Origin: Caulobacter sp.
GTDB lineage: Bacteria > Pseudomonadota > Alphaproteobacteria > Caulobacterales > Caulobacteraceae
Assembly (NCBI GenBank): GCA_030652755.1
Contig: JAUSPV010000097.1
Coordinates: forward strand, 1-64,000
Direction: 5' to 3'
Length of the DNA: 64,000 nucleotides
A program made the position numbers and the translations under genes. The notes under the pieces are model-generated. The model was not told the DNA's origin, ran no database searches, and saw only the letters and a program-made list of their open reading frames with translations. This document shows, piece after piece, positions 29,849 through 41,291 of this stretch (the first letter of the stretch is position 1; each line of letters begins with the position of its first letter).

Positions 29849-29896
29849 TTGACCTGGCGCGGCGGGCGTGGCATACAGTTTATAACGCGTTATAAA
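29849..29896 (+). promoter_or_regulatory. promoter overlapped by an 18-bp perfect palindrome
   Basis: TTGACC (29849-29854) is a good -35 box, and a -10-like CATACA/TACAGT lies 17-19 nt further on. Directly over and after the -10 is TTTATAACGCGTTATAAA (29879-29896), a perfect 18-bp palindrome in otherwise very GC-rich DNA. Its position 20 nt before the first gene of the amidohydrolase operon is classic for a repressor operator. The TetR gene at 33655 is the nearest candidate regulator. I see no second copy in the window. Confidence 0.65.
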
Positions 29897-29915
29897 ATTA
29901 CTCAGGGGACGAAGC

Positions 29916-30122
29916 GTGGCGCTTTCCAGACATCGTCGGTTCGTGACGCCGGCTGCGGATGAAACCATCGAAGCGCTCGCGGCGCGGGCCCTGCCGGACC
30001 GGCCGGTTGATGCGGCCGTCGACGAGATCAAGAGCTACAACATGCATATCTTCGTCATGCGCCGGCCGGCCGGCCTGCTGCTGGGCAGCGACGTGGTCTT
30101 CGTGGAACCGCCGCTGCAATGA
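29916..30122 (+). CDS. unrecognised 68-residue protein, first gene of amidohydrolase operon
   Basis: I do not recognise this family. The GTG start follows CAGGGGACGAAGC, and the stop overlaps the next ATG (ATGA), so it is translated as part of an operon. The N-terminal third is basic (ALSRHRRF), the middle acidic and helical (ADETIEALAARALPDRP), and the C-terminal third hydrophobic and beta-like (MHIFVMRRPAGLLLGSDVVF). There is no signal peptide or clear membrane helix. Given its size and tight linkage to a second small protein and an amidohydrolase, it may be a subunit or accessory factor. That is inference. Confidence 0.65.
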   Translation: MALSRHRRFVTPAADETIEALAARALPDRPVDAAVDEIKSYNMHIFVMRRPAGLLLGSDVVFVEPPLQ

Positions 30123-30355
30123 GCGGCGACGGCGGACCCTGCCCCCCGACCGAAGCGGTCATCGTCGGCGCCGATCTGGCGGCCGGCCATGACGGCGCGG
30201 CCGAGCTGGTGCTCCGCATCCGATATGCCAACGGCGTGGTCGGCAACGTCCTGCTCGATGCGGACGCCGGCTACGCGCTGATGCGCAATTGCGACATCGA
30301 CAGCCTCGACGGCCTGGCGGGCCAGTCCTGGCGAAAGATCCTCGAAGGAGTCTGA
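30119..30355 (+). CDS. unrecognised 78-residue protein, second gene of amidohydrolase operon
   Basis: I do not recognise this family. The 78 residues look like a compact globular domain: a beta segment AVIVGADLAAG, then ELVLRIRYANGVVGNVLLD, then YALMRNCDIDSLDGLAGQSWRKILEGV. There is no signal peptide, membrane helix or metal-binding cysteine pattern. The ATG overlaps the stop of the preceding small gene, and the amidohydrolase GTG begins 2 nt after its stop, preceded by GAAGGAG within this gene. Coupled translation on both sides suggests stoichiometric production with the enzyme. Confidence 0.7.
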   Translation: MSGDGGPCPPTEAVIVGADLAAGHDGAAELVLRIRYANGVVGNVLLDADAGYALMRNCDIDSLDGLAGQSWRKILEGV

Positions 30356-32045: not shown

Positions 32046-33554
32046 ATGACCGAATCCGTCCTCGTCGTCGGCGCCGGCATCGCCGGGCTGTGCAGCGCCC
32101 TCGCCCTTGGCCCCACGGGGCGGGAGGTGACCCTGGTCGAACGCGACGCCCCTCCGCCGGAGGGCGACGCCGACGCCGCCTTCCGCGACTGGAAGCGCAC
32201 AGGGGTCGGCCACCTGCGCCAGAGCCACGCCTTCCTGGCGCGGCTGAGCCTGCTGCTCAAGGCCGACCATCCCAGGCTGCTTGAGGCGCTGGCGGCCTTC
32301 GGCGTGCGTGAACTGCCGTTCGAGGCGATGCTCACCGAGGCCCAGCGCAAGGACTACCGGCCCGAGCCGACCGACGCCGACCTGACCATCATCACCAGCC
32401 GCCGCACGACGCTGGAACTGGTCATGCGCCGCTATGTCGAGACCCTGCCCAACGTGACCATCCGTTCGGGCGTCTTCGCCCGCCGGCTGATCACGCGGAC
32501 CGCCGCCGACGGGACCCTCAGCGTCGTCGGGCTGGCCGGCGAGACGAGCGAAGGCCCTGTCGAACTGTACGCCGACATCGTCCTGGACGCGGCCGGCAAG
32601 GGCGGGGATTTCACCGACCAGCTGGTCGCCGAGGGCGCGACGGTGCGCGAAAACAGCGAGTCGGCGGGCATCCTCTATTTCACCCGCCACTACCGCCTGA
32701 AGCCCGGCCGCAGCGAGCCGCCGCGCATTGGCAACCCGCCGCCCAACGGCGACCTGGGCTTCCTGAAGTTCGGCGTGTTCCCGGCGGACAACGGCTGCTT
32801 CTCGATCACCATGTGCGCGCCGGAAATCGAGTACGAGATCCGCAAGGCCATCGTGAATCCTGACGTCTTTCAGGCGATGACCACCATGCTGCCCGGCCTG
32901 CGCCCCTGGACCGATCCCGAGCTTGCGGAGCCGACGACCAAGGTCTTCGGCATGGGCGACCTGCAGGCCCGCTGGCGTGACCTTGTCGTCGACGGCAAGC
33001 CGGCCGCGCACGGCTACTTCGCCATCGGCGACAACCTGATCCGCACCAATCCGCTGTACGGGCGGGGCTGCTCGTTCGCCGCCGTGGCCGCCTACCAGCT
33101 GCGCGACGTGCTCGACCAGTCCGCCGACCCGGTAGAGCGCGCCCTGACCTATCACCAGGCGATCCAGACCGAGCTGAAGCCCTTCTTCGACCTGATGAAC
33201 AAGCAGGATCGCGCCGCCCTCCGCCGCGCGAAGGCCGCCCTGACGCCCGGCTACAAACCGTCGCTGAAGGCCAGACTGGCGCGGAGCTTCGCCGAGGACG
33301 CCGTGACGATCGCGCTCCGCTGCGACACCGGGCTGCTGCGGCAGGGCATGCGCGGCTTCCACATGCTGGAGCACCCGGAAGCCTGGATCAAGAAGCCCGG
33401 CAACATGGCGAGGATCCTGATGTACTGGGCGCGCGGGCGGAAGCGGAACGCATCGGCCTATCCGCCCAAGCCGGGACCCGAGCGCGAGGAGATGATGCGC
33501 GGCCTCGGCCTCGACGCCCAGGCCGACATGATCCCGGCCCGGCAGGCCGCCTGA
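32046..33554 (+). CDS. FAD-dependent oxidoreductase (geranylgeranyl-reductase/halogenase-like fold)
   Basis: The 502-residue flavoprotein has the N-terminal FAD motif VLVVGAGIAGLCSALALGPTGREVTLVERD, a central beta-sheet substrate domain and the GYFAIGDNLIRTNPLYGRGCSFAAVAAY region that binds the FAD ribityl chain. I see no halogenase GWxWxIP motif, so a hydroxylase or dehydrogenase/reductase role is more likely than halogenation. It follows the amidohydrolase by 23 nt with AGGAGAGACGATCCC before the ATG, so it probably acts in the same pathway. No signal peptide is seen. Confidence 0.78.
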   Translation: MTESVLVVGAGIAGLCSALALGPTGREVTLVERDAPPPEGDADAAFRDWKRTGVGHLRQSHAFLARLSLLLKADHPRLLEALAAFGVRELPFEAMLTEAQRKDYRPEPTDADLTIITSRRTTLELVMRRYVETLPNVTIRSGVFARRLITRTAADGTLSVVGLAGETSEGPVELYADIVLDAAGKGGDFTDQLVAEGATVRENSESAGILYFTRHYRLKPGRSEPPRIGNPPPNGDLGFLKFGVFPADNGCFSITMCAPEIEYEIRKAIVNPDVFQAMTTMLPGLRPWTDPELAEPTTKVFGMGDLQARWRDLVVDGKPAAHGYFAIGDNLIRTNPLYGRGCSFAAVAAYQLRDVLDQSADPVERALTYHQAIQTELKPFFDLMNKQDRAALRRAKAALTPGYKPSLKARLARSFAEDAVTIALRCDTGLLRQGMRGFHMLEHPEAWIKKPGNMARILMYWARGRKRNASAYPPKPGPEREEMMRGLGLDAQADMIPARQAA

Positions 33555-33654
33555 CACGGTCAGCCTATCCCTTTAGCCCCGTCGCGCGGGCTGACGGACC
33601 GGGCCGGCTGTGCCAAAGGAGCTATGCGCCACGGGCGCGGCCACGGGACGGGGC

Positions 33655-34323
33655 ATGAGCAGCAGCAAGCGCGAGGAAGGCAAGGAAGCCCGGCGCCGAC
33701 GCATCGTCGAGGCCGCCCGGGCGCTGATCCGCGAAACGGGCGACACCGGCCTTTCGATGCGCGCTATCGCGGCCCGCGCCGAGGTCAGCCTGGCGACGCC
33801 CTACAACCTGTTCGGATCCAAGCGCGGCGTGGTCATGGCCGTGCTGGAGGACGCCCGCGAATTCCAGGCGAAGTTCGCCACGCTGAAGAATCTGACGGCG
33901 GTGGAGCGCATCTTCAGCGCGCTGAGCATCACCTTCGCCTACCACGTCCAGGATCCGGAGTTTTACCGCACGCTCTGGGCCTCGCTGCTCGATCCCCGCG
34001 GCGGCGACGCCGAGCTACGCGCCGAGCTGATCACGCCGCAGAACACCCAGTTCTGGCGCGGACTGCTTGAGGAGGCCCGGCGCGAGGGCGCCATCGCCGA
34101 CGACATCGACATGGATCTGCTGCAGCAGGCCCTGAATGGCCGGTTCGCCGCAGTGATGCTGAACTGGGTCATGGGCGGGAGTTCGGTCCGCGAACTCGAG
34201 CCCGCCGCCTGTTTCGGATACGCCTCAACCCTGTGCGCCAGCGCGTCCGACGGCTTCCGGCCACATATCCGGCGCCGCATGCTGGACTTCCAGGCCGAGC
34301 TCCTGGCCGTCACGGAAGCCTGA
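33655..34323 (+). CDS. TetR/AcrR family transcriptional regulator
   Basis: The protein of 222 residues has a helix-turn-helix at about 10-58 (RRIVEAARALIRETGDTGL, MRAIAARAEVSLATPYNLFGSKRG) and a variable helical C-terminus. The track start at 33610 is upstream; ATG 33655 follows GGGACGGGGC and begins MSSSKREEG. It lies 100 nt after the FAD oxidoreductase and may be the last gene of that operon or have its own promoter. It is the best local candidate to bind the 18-bp palindrome at 29879. The downstream TonB receptor has separate Fur-like sites. Confidence 0.85.
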   Translation: MSSSKREEGKEARRRRIVEAARALIRETGDTGLSMRAIAARAEVSLATPYNLFGSKRGVVMAVLEDAREFQAKFATLKNLTAVERIFSALSITFAYHVQDPEFYRTLWASLLDPRGGDAELRAELITPQNTQFWRGLLEEARREGAIADDIDMDLLQQALNGRFAAVMLNWVMGGSSVRELEPAACFGYASTLCASASDGFRPHIRRRMLDFQAELLAVTEA

Positions 34324-34480: not shown

Positions 34481-36673
34481 ATGACTTTCGGACCAACCCT
34501 GCGCCGCGCCTTGTTCGCCGGCGCGGCAGCCCTGTCCCTGACCGGCGGCGGCGCCCATGCGGCGGAGACAGCCGCCGAAGCCGGCGCCACGGTCGATGCG
34601 GTCATCGTCACGGCCACGCGCACCGAGAAGGCCGCCGACGAGGTTCCGGTGACCGCATCGGCCATCACGTCGGACGAGATCGACGACCGGCTGGTCGGCG
34701 ACATCAAGGACCTGATCAAGTTCGAGCCCGGCGTCGCGGTTCGCTCCGCCCCGGCCCGCTTCAACGCCGCCCTGTCCGGCACGGGCCGAGATGGTAACAG
34801 CGGCTTCAACATCCGGGGCCTGGAAGGCAATCGCGTGCTGATCCAGATCGACGGCATTCGCCTGCCCGACTCGTTCGGCTTCGGCGCCCAGGCGGTGGGT
34901 CGGGGCGACTACGCCGACCTCGACATGATCAAGTCTGTCGAAATCGTCCGCGGTCCGGCCTCCGCCCTCTATGGTAGCGACGGTCTCGCCGGCTCGGTCA
35001 GCTTCTTCACCAAGGACCCGGAGGATTTCCTGCGGGGCGACCGCACCTTCGCCGCCCAGGCGCGCGCGGGGTATGCCAGCGCCGACGAAAGCACCTATGG
35101 CAATCTGCTGCTGGCCGGCGTCTTCGGCGACTGGCAGGCCATGGTCAGCTACACCCGTCGCCAAGGCTCCGAACAGGAGACGCAGGGACGCGACGGATCA
35201 TCAACGGCGACCCGCACGGTCGCCAACCCCCAGGACTTCACCGCCAACTCGGTGCTGGCCAAGCTGGTGTTCGACCCCGCCGAAGGCCACAGCTTCCGCC
35301 TGACCTGGGATCACCTCGACCGCGAGGTCGACAGCGACATCCTCAGCGCCGTGAGCGCCACCACACTGTCGGTGCTGACCCATGACGAGACCGACCGCGA
35401 CCGGGTCAGTGTCGACTACCGCTTCACCGGCGGCGAAGGCCTGATCAGCCAGGCGCGTCTCGGCGCCTACGTCCAGACCGGCGAGACGACCCAGTTTACC
35501 GCCGAGGATCGCACCTCGACCGACCGCACCCGCCTGAACACCTTCGACAACGAGGTTTGGGGTGTCAGCGGCCAGATCGACAGCCGGTTCTCCACCGGCT
35601 CGGTCGAGCACTACATCGCCTGGGGCGGCGACTGGTCGGTGACCCGTCAGGAGGGCATCCGGAGCGGCACGGCGCCCACCCCGCCCGACGTCTTCCCAAC
35701 GCGCGCCTTCCCCAACACCGACTACACGCTCGTCGGCCTGTTCGTGCAGGACGAGATCAGCCTGTTCGACGGCAAGCTGGCCCTCTTCCCGGCCCTGCGC
35801 TGGGACTGGTACGAGCTCGACGCCCGGGCAGACGCCCTCTACGTCGGCGCCCCTAAGGACAGCAGCGACTCCCACCCCTCGCCCAAGCTGGGCCTGGTGT
35901 GGAGCGCCACCGAAAACCTGAAGGTGTTCAGCAACATCGCCGCCGGCTTCAAGGCTCCGGCGCCGTCGCAGGTCAACAACGCCTTCAGCAACCCGACCCA
36001 GGGCTATATCTCGGCCCCCAACCCCGACCTGAAGCCGGAGACAAGCGAGACCTTCGAAATCGGGCTGCGGTGGAAATCCGGACGGCTCGCGCTGGAAGGC
36101 GCCGTCTTCGCCGGCCGCTACGAAGACTTCATTTCACAGGAAGTGGTCGGCGGCAGCTTCACGCCCGTGGATCCGGCGGTGTTCCAGTACATCAACCTCG
36201 GCGAGGTCGAGATCAGCGGGGTCGAGGCTCGCGCCCGTCTCTCGCTGGACGAGGGATGGACGCTGATCGCGGCGGCCTCAAGCGCGAGCGGCGACGCCAG
36301 AAGCGGCGGCGTTTCCGCACCCCTGGCCAGCATCGAGCCGGTCAAGATCAGCCTCGGCGCGGGCTGGCGCGATCCGGCCGGCCGCTTCGGCGGCCAACTC
36401 AGCGTTGTTCATTCGGCCAGGAAGGACGCTGACCGGGTCGGCACGACCTGCACGCCGAGCTGCTTTGTCCCGCCGGCCTTCACGCTGATCGATCTGACCG
36501 GCTACTGGAACCTGACCGGGCAGGTCACCCTGCGCGGCGGCGTCTTCAACCTGACCGATGAAAAGTACTGGTGGTGGAGCGACGCCCGCGGGCTGTCCTC
36601 CACCTCGGCCGCTCGCGACGCCTACACCCAGCCGGGGCGGAACATCGGCCTCTCCCTGACCCTCAAGCTGTGA
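34481..36673 (+). CDS. TonB-dependent heme/hemoglobin-type receptor
   Basis: The 730-residue outer-membrane protein has a signal peptide (MTFGPTLRRALFAGAAALSL, cut near AHAA), a TonB box (DAVIVTATRTEK), a plug (GNRVLIQIDGIRLPDSF, VEIVRGPASALYGSDGLAGS) and a barrel. In the barrel, GFKAP followed some 25 residues later by NPDLKPE matches the FRAP/NPNL signature of heme receptors. This fits the TonB-hemoglobin/transferrin/lactoferrin receptor family. It is preceded by candidate Fur boxes and followed 8 nt later by a DUF6607 gene, so the pair is likely co-expressed under iron limitation. Confidence 0.88.
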   Translation: MTFGPTLRRALFAGAAALSLTGGGAHAAETAAEAGATVDAVIVTATRTEKAADEVPVTASAITSDEIDDRLVGDIKDLIKFEPGVAVRSAPARFNAALSGTGRDGNSGFNIRGLEGNRVLIQIDGIRLPDSFGFGAQAVGRGDYADLDMIKSVEIVRGPASALYGSDGLAGSVSFFTKDPEDFLRGDRTFAAQARAGYASADESTYGNLLLAGVFGDWQAMVSYTRRQGSEQETQGRDGSSTATRTVANPQDFTANSVLAKLVFDPAEGHSFRLTWDHLDREVDSDILSAVSATTLSVLTHDETDRDRVSVDYRFTGGEGLISQARLGAYVQTGETTQFTAEDRTSTDRTRLNTFDNEVWGVSGQIDSRFSTGSVEHYIAWGGDWSVTRQEGIRSGTAPTPPDVFPTRAFPNTDYTLVGLFVQDEISLFDGKLALFPALRWDWYELDARADALYVGAPKDSSDSHPSPKLGLVWSATENLKVFSNIAAGFKAPAPSQVNNAFSNPTQGYISAPNPDLKPETSETFEIGLRWKSGRLALEGAVFAGRYEDFISQEVVGGSFTPVDPAVFQYINLGEVEISGVEARARLSLDEGWTLIAAASSASGDARSGGVSAPLASIEPVKISLGAGWRDPAGRFGGQLSVVHSARKDADRVGTTCTPSCFVPPAFTLIDLTGYWNLTGQVTLRGGVFNLTDEKYWWWSDARGLSSTSAARDAYTQPGRNIGLSLTLKL

Positions 36674-36681
36674 ACCTGACC

Positions 36682-37674
36682 ATGCCCAAAACCATGCTCA
36701 TCAAGACTGTCGCCTTCGCGGCGCTCGGCGCCGTCCTGCTGGTCACGCCACGGGCCGCCCTCGCCCAGGCCACGCCCGCCTCCGCCGCGCGGGTCCTCCC
36801 GGCCTTCGAACAGGATCGTCAGGCGGTCCTGGCCATGGCAGGAGAGTTCAAGGTCCGCTTCGACTTCCGTGAAACCGCCGCCTTCGTCGCCGACTACACG
36901 CCCATCGCGCCCAAGGTCAGCGGTGGCTACGAAGTCGTTCGCGTGATCGAGGACAGCGGTCGGGTCATCCGCCTGCAGCATCTGCTGGTGGTGGACGGCG
37001 GCGACGGCAAGCCAATGGTCATCAAGCACTGGCGCCAGGACTGGGCCTACGAGCCTGCCCGGATTCTGACCTACGCCGGCCCCGGCAAGTGGGTTCTGAA
37101 GGACATTCCCGAGGCCGCCCGCAAGGGTCGCTGGTCGCAGACCGTCTGGCAGACAGACGACTCGCCCCGCTACGGCGGCCTCGGCCGCTGGACCTTCGAG
37201 GACGGCGCCACCCGTTGGATCAGCGAGGAGACGCCCCGTCCGCTCGCGCGCCGCGACGCGGTCCGCAAGCCGGTCTACGGCTGGTACGTCGGGACCAACC
37301 GGCATGCCCTGACCCCGGCCGGCTGGATCCACGAACAGGACAACGCCAAGATCGGCCTGCGGGACGGCAAGAGCGTCACCTTCGTCCATGAGGTGGTGCT
37401 CAATACCTACAGCCGCTTCGGCGGCTTCGATGTCGCCGCCGCCGACAGCTACTGGGCCGGGACCCGGGAGTATTGGGCCGAGGTGCGCAAGGCCTGGGAC
37501 GAAGCCGCGGCGAAGGGCAAGGGGATCAGCCTGGAAGAGGAAGCCGAGGCAGGTTCGGTTACCGGTCCAACCCTTATGGGTCTCGCCGACGAGATCCTGA
37601 AGGGCGAGAAGACGACCAAGGCCGCCATCGCCGAGGCCCGTCAGGTCATCGCCGAGGAGACCGGAGGACTGTAA
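36682..37674 (+). CDS. DUF6607 family exported protein
   Basis: The protein of 330 residues has a signal peptide (MPKTMLIKTVAFAALGAVLLVTP...ALAQ). It then shows the conserved blocks of the DUF6607 family: VRFDFRETAAF, LQHLLVV, IKHWRQDWAYEP, WSQTVWQTDDSPRYGG, NRHALTPAGWIHEQDNAK. The function of DUF6607 is not known; as I recall it, members occur next to TonB heme or iron receptors in Bacteroidetes and alphaproteobacteria. The track start at 36571 lies inside the receptor gene; ATG 36682 is the real start. It is probably periplasmic or surface-exposed and serves the adjacent heme-type receptor. Confidence 0.85.
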   Translation: MPKTMLIKTVAFAALGAVLLVTPRAALAQATPASAARVLPAFEQDRQAVLAMAGEFKVRFDFRETAAFVADYTPIAPKVSGGYEVVRVIEDSGRVIRLQHLLVVDGGDGKPMVIKHWRQDWAYEPARILTYAGPGKWVLKDIPEAARKGRWSQTVWQTDDSPRYGGLGRWTFEDGATRWISEETPRPLARRDAVRKPVYGWYVGTNRHALTPAGWIHEQDNAKIGLRDGKSVTFVHEVVLNTYSRFGGFDVAAADSYWAGTREYWAEVRKAWDEAAAKGKGISLEEEAEAGSVTGPTLMGLADEILKGEKTTKAAIAEARQVIAEETGGL

Positions 37675-37704
37675 GCCGCCTCATCCGCGTCGAGATACGG
37701 AAAC

Positions 37705-37734
37705 GCCCGCGGCCGGAAGGTCGCGGGCTTTTTT
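37705..37734. terminator. intrinsic terminator between convergent genes
   Basis: GCCCGCGGCC-GGAA-GGTCGCGGGC forms a 10-bp stem with one wobble pair and is followed by TTTTTT. It closes the receptor-DUF6607 operon on the plus strand and may also serve the convergent siderophore-receptor operon. Confidence 0.88.
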
Positions 37735-37783
37735 GTCTGTCCATCGGATGGTCCCCGGCCGAAGCCGGGGATCGCCCGAACCG

Positions 37784-39910
37784 TCAGAAGCGACGCGTCA
37801 GGCTGGCGACCACCACCCGGCGCGTGCCGTAGAAGCAGTTGCTGTAGCTGTAGCACCGCGCCACGTATTCCTTGTCGGCCAGGTTGCTGGCGGTGAGCGC
37901 CAGGCGCCAATCATCGCGGTCGTAGTGGATCGAGCCGTCGAACAGCATGACGGACGGATTGATCATGACCGTTGTGAAGTAGGATTCCGGCAGGTTGCCG
38001 GCGCTCTTGCTCAGGTAGCGCGCGCCAAGGCTGGCCCCGAGGCCGGCGAACGGACCGTCCTGGAAGGTCCAGTCGATCAGGGCCGACAGCTTGTGTTCCG
38101 GCGTCACGGGCAGCTCGGCGCCGAGCTCGTAGGCCGCGCCCTCGGTCACCTCGGAATCGCTCCAGGTGTAGGAGGCGTTGAGACTGAGGCGCTCGTTGAA
38201 GCGGCCGACGACCTCGAACTCCAGGCCCTTGACCTCGACCTCGCCGACCTGCGCCTGGAAGCCGATGTTCACGGGGTCATCGGTGAGGACGTTCTGCTGC
38301 GTGATCTTATAGGCGGCGGCGGTGGCAAACAGCTTCACGCCCTCGGGCAAGCCGCGGCCATCCCACTTCACACCGGCCTCGATCTGCTCGCCGGTGGTCG
38401 CCTCGAAGGGATCGCCGCCGAAGCCAGCCCCGGCCACGGGCTGGAACGACCGCGCCCAGGAGACGTAGGGCGTGACGCCGTTGGCGAAGACGTAGGAGGC
38501 GCCGGCGCGCCATGACGCCTCGCCGTCATCGGTCTCGGTGTTGGCAAGCCGGTCCTGGGTCTGCACCCAGTCATAGCGGGCGCCCAGGGTCAGGATCAGG
38601 CCGCCCCCGATCTTGATCTGGTCCTGGGCGTAGAGGCCGGTCTGCTTCTCCTCGTAGCTGGAGAAGGTCACCGGCGGCAGGTTGGGAATGGCCAGGCCGT
38701 AGACCGGCGCGAAGACATCGATGTTGGGCATGCCGAAGCCAAAAGCGCTGGCGCCGACATAGTCGTAGTTGCGGTGGTCCAGCCCGAGCAGAAGGTTGTG
38801 GCTGACGCGGCCGGTCTCGATCTTCCCGGTCAGGCGGCTGTCAACGCCGAAGGTCTCGACCTCCTCGGCGAAGGAGAAGCTGTACCGGGAGACGGTTCGG
38901 TAGTCGTCCGGAACGCCGTTGAAGTCGGCGTCGACGAAGCCATTGCCGCCGATCCCTCGCTGATCGCCGTCGAGGCTGGTGAACTTGACGTTCTGCTCGA
39001 AGTCCCAGCTGTCATTGATCTGGTGGCTCAGCTCGTAGCCGAGGCCCCAGTGGGTGCGAACAAAGCGGTTGTAACTGGTCTCGCCGAGATTGGCGTCCGA
39101 GCCGATCTCACCCAGCGGATTGGCGAGCAAGGTGCCTTGGGAGGGCAGAAAGCCGCCGCCATCGCCACTGACCGTGTCGTCCTGCCAGAAGCCCAGGACC
39201 GTGATCCTGGTGTCGGCGCCGAGGCCGAACGAGACGGCCGGGGCCAGGAAGCTGCGCTCGACACCGACGCCGCGCACCTGGGTGCCCTTGTCGCGGTAGA
39301 GACCGGTCAGGCGGGCGCTGACGCCCGGCGCGACTTCGCCGGTGATGTCGCCGTTGACCTGCCAGTGGTCGTTGTTGCCGATCTCCGCCCCGAACTCGCC
39401 GCCGAAATCGTCGCGCGGCCGGCGGCTGGTGACGTTGACGATCCCGCCCGGAGGGGCCGAGCCGTACAGGAACGAGGCCGGGCCCTTGAGGATCTCGACG
39501 GTCTGCGCGCCGTAGAGGTCGAGGCCGGTGTTGGTGATCGAACCGATCGAGGCCTGGATGCCGTCGATGTACTGCACCGGATTGAACCCGCGCACGGTCA
39601 GCCAGTCGACACGCTCGTCGGGGCCGTAGTTCTCGCCATTCACGCCGGCAGTGTAGCGGACCACCTGGCTGAGCGTGTTCCAGTCGAGCAGGTCGATCTG
39701 GTCGCGCGAGATGACGGTGATCGACTGCGGATTCTCGACCAGCGCGATTCCGGCCTTGCCGGCCGCGACGCTGCCCTGGGGAACATAGTCGCGGGCGGTG
39801 ACGATCAGGCCCTCGACGTCGGTGTCCTGGGCAAGGGCGGGCATGGCGGCGGCGAGCGCGGCGGCGGAGACGCCGGCCAGGGCGAGACAGCGCAGCAGAG
39901 GGTGGTTCAC
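37784..39910 (-). CDS. TonB-dependent siderophore-type receptor
   Basis: The 708-residue protein has a signal peptide (MNHPLLRCLALAGVSAAALAAAMPALAQ), a TonB box (EGLIVTARDY) and the plug of the TonB-siderophore family: NPQSITVISRDQI, DWLTVRGFNPVQYIDG, VEILKGPASFLYGSAPPGGIVN. The barrel ends with ASLTRRF. The FhuA/FhuE-like plug motif argues for ferric-siderophore import. It is the last gene of a minus-strand operon with a PepSY membrane protein and a small membrane protein, an arrangement typical of siderophore uptake with inner-membrane or periplasmic reduction. A candidate Fur box lies ahead of the operon. Confidence 0.92.
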   Translation of the reverse strand: MNHPLLRCLALAGVSAAALAAAMPALAQDTDVEGLIVTARDYVPQGSVAAGKAGIALVENPQSITVISRDQIDLLDWNTLSQVVRYTAGVNGENYGPDERVDWLTVRGFNPVQYIDGIQASIGSITNTGLDLYGAQTVEILKGPASFLYGSAPPGGIVNVTSRRPRDDFGGEFGAEIGNNDHWQVNGDITGEVAPGVSARLTGLYRDKGTQVRGVGVERSFLAPAVSFGLGADTRITVLGFWQDDTVSGDGGGFLPSQGTLLANPLGEIGSDANLGETSYNRFVRTHWGLGYELSHQINDSWDFEQNVKFTSLDGDQRGIGGNGFVDADFNGVPDDYRTVSRYSFSFAEEVETFGVDSRLTGKIETGRVSHNLLLGLDHRNYDYVGASAFGFGMPNIDVFAPVYGLAIPNLPPVTFSSYEEKQTGLYAQDQIKIGGGLILTLGARYDWVQTQDRLANTETDDGEASWRAGASYVFANGVTPYVSWARSFQPVAGAGFGGDPFEATTGEQIEAGVKWDGRGLPEGVKLFATAAAYKITQQNVLTDDPVNIGFQAQVGEVEVKGLEFEVVGRFNERLSLNASYTWSDSEVTEGAAYELGAELPVTPEHKLSALIDWTFQDGPFAGLGASLGARYLSKSAGNLPESYFTTVMINPSVMLFDGSIHYDRDDWRLALTASNLADKEYVARCYSYSNCFYGTRRVVVASLTRRF

Positions 39911-39933
39911 TTCGGTATCCTTGGTTTTCAGGT

Positions 39934-40119
39934 TCAGGTGCGGCGGGCCTTCAGGGCCCAGATGATGACGAGGACAGGCGCGGCGAGGCCGGCCCAGGAG
40001 ATCCAGTCGCGAATGCCGTCGCCCAGCAGGGCGCTGACCAGTCCGATGAGGCTGGCCAGGGCGATCGCCAGCGGCGCGCCGAAGGTGTGCAGGAGGCTCC
40101 CGCGGCCGGGCTTGCTCAC
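39934..40119 (-). CDS. small two-helix membrane protein (61 residues)
   Basis: This gene is hidden in the track as the tail of a 260-residue ORF. The real unit starts at GTG 40119, overlapping the PepSY gene stop by 4 nt (GTGA), and ends 23 nt before the siderophore receptor. It has two hydrophobic segments, FGAPLAIALASLIGLVSALL and WISWAGLAAPVLVIIWAL, separated by GDGIRDW, with a basic end KARRT. I do not know the family by name. Small proteins of this kind are common beside PepSY/receptor genes and may help the PepSY membrane protein. Confidence 0.75.
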   Translation of the reverse strand: MSKPGRGSLLHTFGAPLAIALASLIGLVSALLGDGIRDWISWAGLAAPVLVIIWALKARRT

Positions 40120-41267
40120 AGAGCCGCCTCCGGGGCGGCGACGCCGCCGCTCCGCAGCTCGCGCAGTCGAGCGTCCAGCGGCGCCCGGCGCTTGTCCAGC
40201 CAGAGGTACAGCCCGCTGCCCAGTATGATGATGGTGATGATGTCCAGCACCGCCCAGAGGATCTTCAGCGGCAGTCCGCCGTAGTCCCCGAAATGCAGCG
40301 GCTGCGAGAGCAGAAGGGCCTGTGCGTACCAGGGCATCTTGCGCATGGCGGTCAGGTCGCCGGTTTCGGCGTCGACCAGCGCCGGCGTCAGCAGGGTCTT
40401 GGTCAGCGGTGTGTCGCCCTGCATGAAGACGGCGTAGTGGTGCTTGCTGCTGAAATAGCCTCCGGGGAAGGCCACGAACTGCGGCCGCATGCCGGGCGCA
40501 GCGGCCCTGGCGGTCGCGACGGCGGCGTTGATGGAGCCGAGCCTGCGCGGATTCACCGGCGCCATGGTCTTGTAGGGCGCCGTCATCTCGGCCAGCTGGG
40601 TAGCCTGCCAGATCTGGATGATCGGCTGCGACAGGGTGTTGATCACGCCGGTCAGGCCGACCACGCTGACCCAGGCCAGCGTCACGATGCCGAGCAGGTT
40701 GTGATAGTCGAGCCACTTGAGCCGCCGGGAGCGGCTAGTCCGCACCGTGCCGAAGTCCAGCTTGGCCATGAAGGGGCGGTAGACGACCACGCCCGACACC
40801 GTGGCCACGAAGAAGAGCAGTCCCATCAGGCCCATGAACAGCAGGCCGGGCAGACCCAGGAACAGGTCGGTGTGCAGGCGCAGGATGAACTCCATCACGC
40901 CGCCGGCCGGCGCGGTCACGACCTCGCCGGTGCGCTGATCCAGGGACTGGAACTGCATGGCGGCCTCCGGCGCGTCGGGGCGCGGACCGGTCGTGACGTT
41001 CACGACCGGACGGTCCTCGTCAAAGCTCATGAACAAGCCGACCTCGCCGGGCCGGTTGGCCAGGGCCCTGGCCATGATCTCATCGAGGTCGAGCAGCCGG
41101 TCACTCGCCACGGGCTTCAGCTCGCCATGCGCGCCGCTCAGCTCGTCGATCTCGTGTTCGAAGATCAGCGGCAAGCCGGTGACGCACAGCAACAGCAGGA
41201 ACGCCGTGCAGATCAGGCTCGTCCACTTGTGGACGAGGTACCAGGCGCGGATCGTTCCGCGAGTCAT
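40116..41267 (-). CDS. PepSY-associated membrane protein (iron-uptake reductase-like)
   Basis: The protein of 383 residues belongs to the PepSY_TM (PiuB-like) family. It has an N-terminal helix after an HKW motif (AWYLVHKWTSLICTAFLLLLCVTGLPLIF), a periplasmic PepSY part, an HTDLFLGLPGLLFMGLMGLLFF helix, WLDYHNLLGIVTLAWVSVVGLTGVI with a His likely to bind heme, and a C-terminal helix. Some relatives reduce ferric siderophores. The track start is TTG 41273; ATG 41267 has GGAG 7 nt upstream and is preferred. It heads the operon with a small membrane protein and a siderophore receptor, so it probably releases iron from the imported siderophore. Confidence 0.87.
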   Translation of the reverse strand: MTRGTIRAWYLVHKWTSLICTAFLLLLCVTGLPLIFEHEIDELSGAHGELKPVASDRLLDLDEIMARALANRPGEVGLFMSFDEDRPVVNVTTGPRPDAPEAAMQFQSLDQRTGEVVTAPAGGVMEFILRLHTDLFLGLPGLLFMGLMGLLFFVATVSGVVVYRPFMAKLDFGTVRTSRSRRLKWLDYHNLLGIVTLAWVSVVGLTGVINTLSQPIIQIWQATQLAEMTAPYKTMAPVNPRRLGSINAAVATARAAAPGMRPQFVAFPGGYFSSKHHYAVFMQGDTPLTKTLLTPALVDAETGDLTAMRKMPWYAQALLLSQPLHFGDYGGLPLKILWAVLDIITIIILGSGLYLWLDKRRAPLDARLRELRSGGVAAPEAAL

Positions 41268-41291
41268 GGGCAAGCTCCGCGCGCGCCGGGA

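Follow-up and report, generated by a model that had tools for sequence, protein, structure and literature searches.

Urease is encoded by two small genes directly upstream of the gene for a roughly 560-residue subunit of the amidohydrolase superfamily, and natural fusions occur. Proteins related to D-aminoacylase are regarded as deacylases that work as a single protein. Among these, PpOngB is reported to be monomeric, with Cys97, His222 and His252 as zinc ligands (PMC12017989). In the literature that we searched, there was no report of small partner genes for the D-aminoacylase group, nor any description of the gene pair or of the operon considered here. We analysed a stretch of 64,000 nucleotides from a Caulobacter sp. 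(the window) which, as judged from sequence, very probably encodes a three-part enzyme, undescribed in the literature searched, in which a protein resembling D-aminoacylase has two small partners that look obligate.

Gene layout and conservation of the trio

Three consecutive genes on the forward strand make up the trio. P1 (29916-30122) has a GTG start and encodes a protein of 68 amino acids, a putative small subunit which is tentatively LysM-like. P2 (30119-30355) encodes a second putative small subunit of 78 amino acids and has its ATG start within an ATGA overlap with P1, while P3 (30358-32022), again with a GTG start, encodes a 554-residue member of the amidohydrolase superfamily (PF07969) that is the putative catalytic subunit. 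Two nucleotides (AC) separate the end of P2 from the start of P3. The sequence and its open reading frames agree exactly with the earlier note, which had described products of 68 and 78 residues that share an ATGA overlap and end 2 nt before an amidohydrolase. A Shine-Dalgarno-like AGGGGA (29904-29909, forward strand) is found 6 nt upstream of the P1 start, and the Shine-Dalgarno sequence of P3, GAAGGAG (30344-30350, same strand), lies inside the last codons of P2, 7 nt upstream of the P3 start. A Glu-Gly pair near the C-terminus is conserved in many P2 proteins, which may in part reflect the embedding of this sequence there. We regard P1 and P2 as real genes because they are under purifying selection and have homologues in a conserved order: against eight relatives, dN/dS was 0.14-0.51 for the two genes (0.14-0.35 for P1 alone), and synonymous change exceeded non-synonymous change per site in every comparison.

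P2 is present in 35 of 199 Caulobacteraceae genomes, and P1 in 34 of 299 genomes from the order Caulobacterales, where it is spread over four families. The 199 Caulobacteraceae genomes contain 36 places encoding a P3 of at least 56% identity, all with P1/P2; by their coordinates, 34 of these lie near P2 on the same contig and the other two (G051 and G046) are split by contig ends. The order P1-P2-P3 was found at every Caulobacterales locus with enough sequence. The survey of operon conservation that the earlier note had called for therefore finds the small genes conserved beside P3 orthologues, not missing from them. Beyond the order, P1 was not found in broad samples of Alphaproteobacteria and Pseudomonadota, nor in 239 genomes of one further alphaproteobacterial family (a search run without a positive control), and in a plasmid collection the P1/P2 pair occurred only in two sphingomonad records. 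The overlap of P1 with P2 is 4 nt at most loci, while the distance from P2 to P3 is mostly between -16 and +29 nt. Translational coupling on both sides, as first proposed, thus holds in the window but is not universal between P2 and P3, which are 150-290 nt apart in one sub-lineage. In one genome (G067), a gene for an Nramp-type metal transporter (L152:2906-4351) lies between the two.

The gene layout is shared with urease UreA-UreB-UreC (gamma-beta-alpha). The proteins themselves do not extend this likeness. Neither P1 nor P2 matched the urease gamma or beta families, even at E-values up to 10, and P3 scored only 14.9 bits (E 0.035) against a cutoff of 23 with PF00449, the N-terminal model of urease alpha.

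Clade specificity, fusion and co-inheritance

We built a maximum-likelihood tree from 63 P3 proteins, of which 43 come with P1/P2. A branch with 100/99 support sets these 43 apart from the rest, and it was recovered in all bootstrap trees (100%). Using profiles built from all members, with filters off, we found no P1 or P2 beside the inspected P3 paralogues at 41-46% identity, nor beside the inspected relatives at 30-36%, a range that includes two proteins from the window's own genome, of which one was inspected. The P3 proteins that accompany P1/P2 have 16 residues that are constant in the clade and never occur outside it. Clade-specific residues near the metal site are P59 and F63, which flank the HxH motif, P86 near C89, and T444-Y445 after D434.

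On a plasmid of Sphingobium sp. TomTYG64, a single gene encodes a 637-residue fusion in which a Gly/Ala/Pro-rich linker joins the P3 domain to a C-terminal P1, and P2 overlaps the stop of this fusion gene. Set against urease, the fusion here is of the form P3-P1, with P1 at the C-terminus. One genome carries two complete trios (L068 and L069) with mutual identities of 54% for P1, 30% for P2 and 59% for P3, and within each trio all three proteins are closest to the same foreign lineages. Pairwise distances for P1 and P2 follow those for P3 with r values of 0.92 and 0.91, respectively, which also reflect shared descent. It follows from the paired duplicate trios and the matching distances that the trio moves and diverges as a unit.

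Plasmid Mpl of Novosphingobium PP1Y carries a divergent P1-P2 pair (L023:9968-10434) with no adjacent P3, and the nearest P3-like gene on this plasmid is only 29.5% identical. The pair adjoins a divergent gene whose product is arylsulfatase-like by eye. An orphan pair on a plasmid, and indeed any pair of small genes with an ATGA overlap, would fit an unrelated two-gene module (for example, one that is toxin-antitoxin-like) placed upstream of P3 by chance. Such a module is, however, hard to square with the strict linkage to one P3 clade, with the fusion to P3, or with the lack of P3-independent spread in the alphaproteobacterial and pseudomonadotal samples; it is already disfavoured and we consider it very improbable.

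Gene order, conservation, clade specificity, fusion and co-divergence are direct observations. The explanation that we prefer, to which we assign a probability of about 0.7, is that P3 belongs to a heteromeric enzyme in which P1 and P2 act as dedicated small subunits, or as accessory proteins bound tightly to P3. The earlier note had named subunits, chaperones and carriers together. An association with P3 is strongly supported, and a subunit role is preferred to that of a chaperone or carrier on account of the P3-P1 fusion, the gene order, and the absence of P1/P2 beside the other inspected relatives of P3. The enzyme would comprise a TIM-barrel catalytic subunit of roughly 555 residues and two partners of 70-90 residues, which translational coupling may deliver in matched amounts. 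P1 would dock in or close to the C-terminal part of P3, where it is covalently joined in Sphingobium, and P2 would sit with P1. Their joint role is probably to stabilise, assemble or gate the mouth of the barrel with its substrate loops. The substrate of the enzyme may be an amide or another polar compound, and the reaction may take place in the cytoplasm. Speaking against a subunit role are the PP1Y pair without an adjacent P3 and the gap or Nramp gene between P2 and P3 outlined above, together with the poor structural model for P1 and the lack of a significant fold match for P2 that are described below.

The active site of P3 and the nature of P1 and P2

P3 matches PF07969 (Amidohydro_3) with an E-value of 1.2e-33 and 117.7 bits, and its nearest solved structures belong to the D-aminoacylase / N-acyl-D-glutamate deacylase / OngB group (1M7J, 3GIP and 9KB3). 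It resembles that group in its Amidohydro_3 fold with an HxH motif (H60 and H62), a Cys (C89) and a catalytic Asp (D434), all of which are invariant in the clade with P1/P2, but differs in lacking the beta-site pair of zinc-binding His residues. No counterpart of His222 and His252 of PpOngB was found in the clade, where the stretch between H152 and H413 has no His that is conserved; this comes from a count of conserved His residues, since this middle region is missing from the profile alignment with the solved structures. Because the two beta-site His of D-aminoacylases are absent, the term 'deacylase' should not be assumed for P3. E236 is a clade-specific acid, and Y238 close to it is likewise specific to the clade. 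It is conceivable, although quite unlikely, that the missing His are replaced by E236 or by residues that the small subunits provide in trans (e.g. the invariant His24 of P2) within a true hetero-oligomer whose active site is unlike that of the D-aminoacylases, which would amount to a three-subunit, urease-like architecture that evolved a second time independently.

As the earlier note had stated, neither small protein belongs to a recognised family: no Pfam or NCBIfam model scored over its cutoff. There was also no convincing relative among PDB sequences, and no match in a PHROGs search for phage-tail-type families. P2 is predicted to fold as three beta strands followed by helices (AF2, pLDDT 77), and H24 and G26 are invariant across its homologues. 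A fold search with this model returned nothing with an E-value below 0.1; the matches were mostly of mandelate-racemase type (E of at least 0.13, TM about 0.3-0.4), and an enolase-superfamily N-terminal cap is accordingly a weak lead, with a structural match that is not significant. The model for P1 is poor (pLDDT 61, falling below 50 in the C-terminal third), with two helices at residues 18-25 and 31-40; the fold of a LysM domain is beta-alpha-alpha-beta. P1 contains a GDTW..IA-like motif, then N and then a final hydrophobic strand, an arrangement that is LysM-like. We did not adopt LysM (PF01476) as its family, as only 2 of 13 members matched and the best of these matches (E 0.11) fell short of the cutoff, which leaves a resemblance of motif. 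A profile-profile comparison of P1 with LysM was not significant (P 0.041, probability 0.7%), and P1 is 67-81 residues long compared to about 43 for a LysM domain.

It might be argued that P1 and P2 are instead assembly factors for P3, either metallochaperones or folding chaperones, which are absent from the finished enzyme. They are small and co-translated and occur with a single clade, P2 has its invariant His and Gly, the usual beta-site His pair is absent from P3, and an Nramp metal-transporter gene separates P2 from P3 in one genome. However, the loss of the His pair does not alone explain P1/P2, because the inspected paralogues of P3 mostly share this loss and yet have no P1/P2. Moreover, a permanent fusion of P1 to P3, as in Sphingobium, is more natural for a subunit, and the Cys/His cluster typical of a metallochaperone is absent from P1 and P2. 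On balance, we think a role confined to assembly unlikely.

Operon companions and a putative operator

The gene order in the window is P1-P2-P3-FAD-TetR and then a TonB-dependent receptor, with genes for an MFS transporter and a carboxylesterase divergent. The FAD gene (32046-33554, forward strand) encodes a FAD-dependent monooxygenase-like protein that is homologous to MonCI and Lsd18 (phmmer 1.4e-17 against MonCI), and it occupies a conserved position either after P3 or after an alpha/beta hydrolase gene. The gene for a TetR-type regulator (33610-34323, forward strand; PF00440, 1.3e-8) is likewise conserved in position. MonCI and Lsd18 are flavin epoxidases of polyether biosynthesis (PMC10560226), but the homology concerns the FAD protein and not P1/P2, and the neighbours that we examined included no recognisable gene of a polyether pathway. 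Downstream of the operon, positions 34481-41273 hold what looks like an uptake cluster, with genes for a DUF6607 protein, a PepSY_TM protein and two TonB-dependent receptors.

Of 24 wider loci, 23 have P3, 15 the FAD protein, 14 the TetR-type regulator and 12 an alpha/beta hydrolase that resembles epoxide hydrolases. The fullest form of the operon is P1-P2-P3-hydrolase-FAD-TetR. The trio is the constant core, whereas the flavoprotein, the epoxide-hydrolase-like hydrolase and the TetR-type regulator are optional. The presence of flavoprotein, hydrolase and TetR genes in one operon, together with the P1-P2 pair that has no adjacent P3 in PP1Y, could mean that P1 and P2 function at a different step of the same pathway, as a substrate carrier to P3 or the flavoprotein or as a metabolite-binding regulator, and that this alone is why they share the operon. 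Against this, some lineages retain the trio alone, beside unrelated genes and without any other operon gene, so that P1 and P2 are tied to P3 and not to its companions. Furthermore, the fusion partner of P1 is P3 as opposed to any other operon protein, and by inspection neither P1 nor P2 has a recognisable carrier-protein motif for the attachment of 4'-phosphopantetheine, lipoyl or biotin. We judge a role in another step to be improbable.

A perfect 18-bp palindrome, TTTATAACGCGTTATAAA (29879-29896; no strand applies), lies 19 nt upstream of P1 and is unique in the window, where shuffling gives an expectation of 0. The related pattern TTnnAACryGTTnnAA is found 19-48 nt upstream of P1 at 14 of the 15 loci that have the FAD gene and at one of the nine that lack it (one-sided Fisher test, about 1e-4, calculated by hand and ignoring relatedness). 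The likeliest reading is that the palindrome is the operator of the operon's own TetR-type regulator. The unit delimited by the earlier note, P1/P2 and the amidohydrolase, was correct as far as it went but incomplete, in that the flavoprotein gene, the TetR gene and the palindrome also belong to it. In the window's lineage, the proposed heteromeric enzyme would be produced from a TetR-repressed operon together with a flavin epoxidase-like oxygenase, beside a gene for an outer-membrane receptor.

If it is true that one clade of D-aminoacylase relatives needs two small partners, then heterologous assays of P3 alone would fail and its annotation would be misleading. The superfamily to which urease belongs would also gain a further, independent example of the recruitment of small subunits. 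It would suggest, too, that the Caulobacterales have an uncharacterised operon for oxidative catabolism or detoxification in which the P3 enzyme is paired with a MonCI-like oxygenase.
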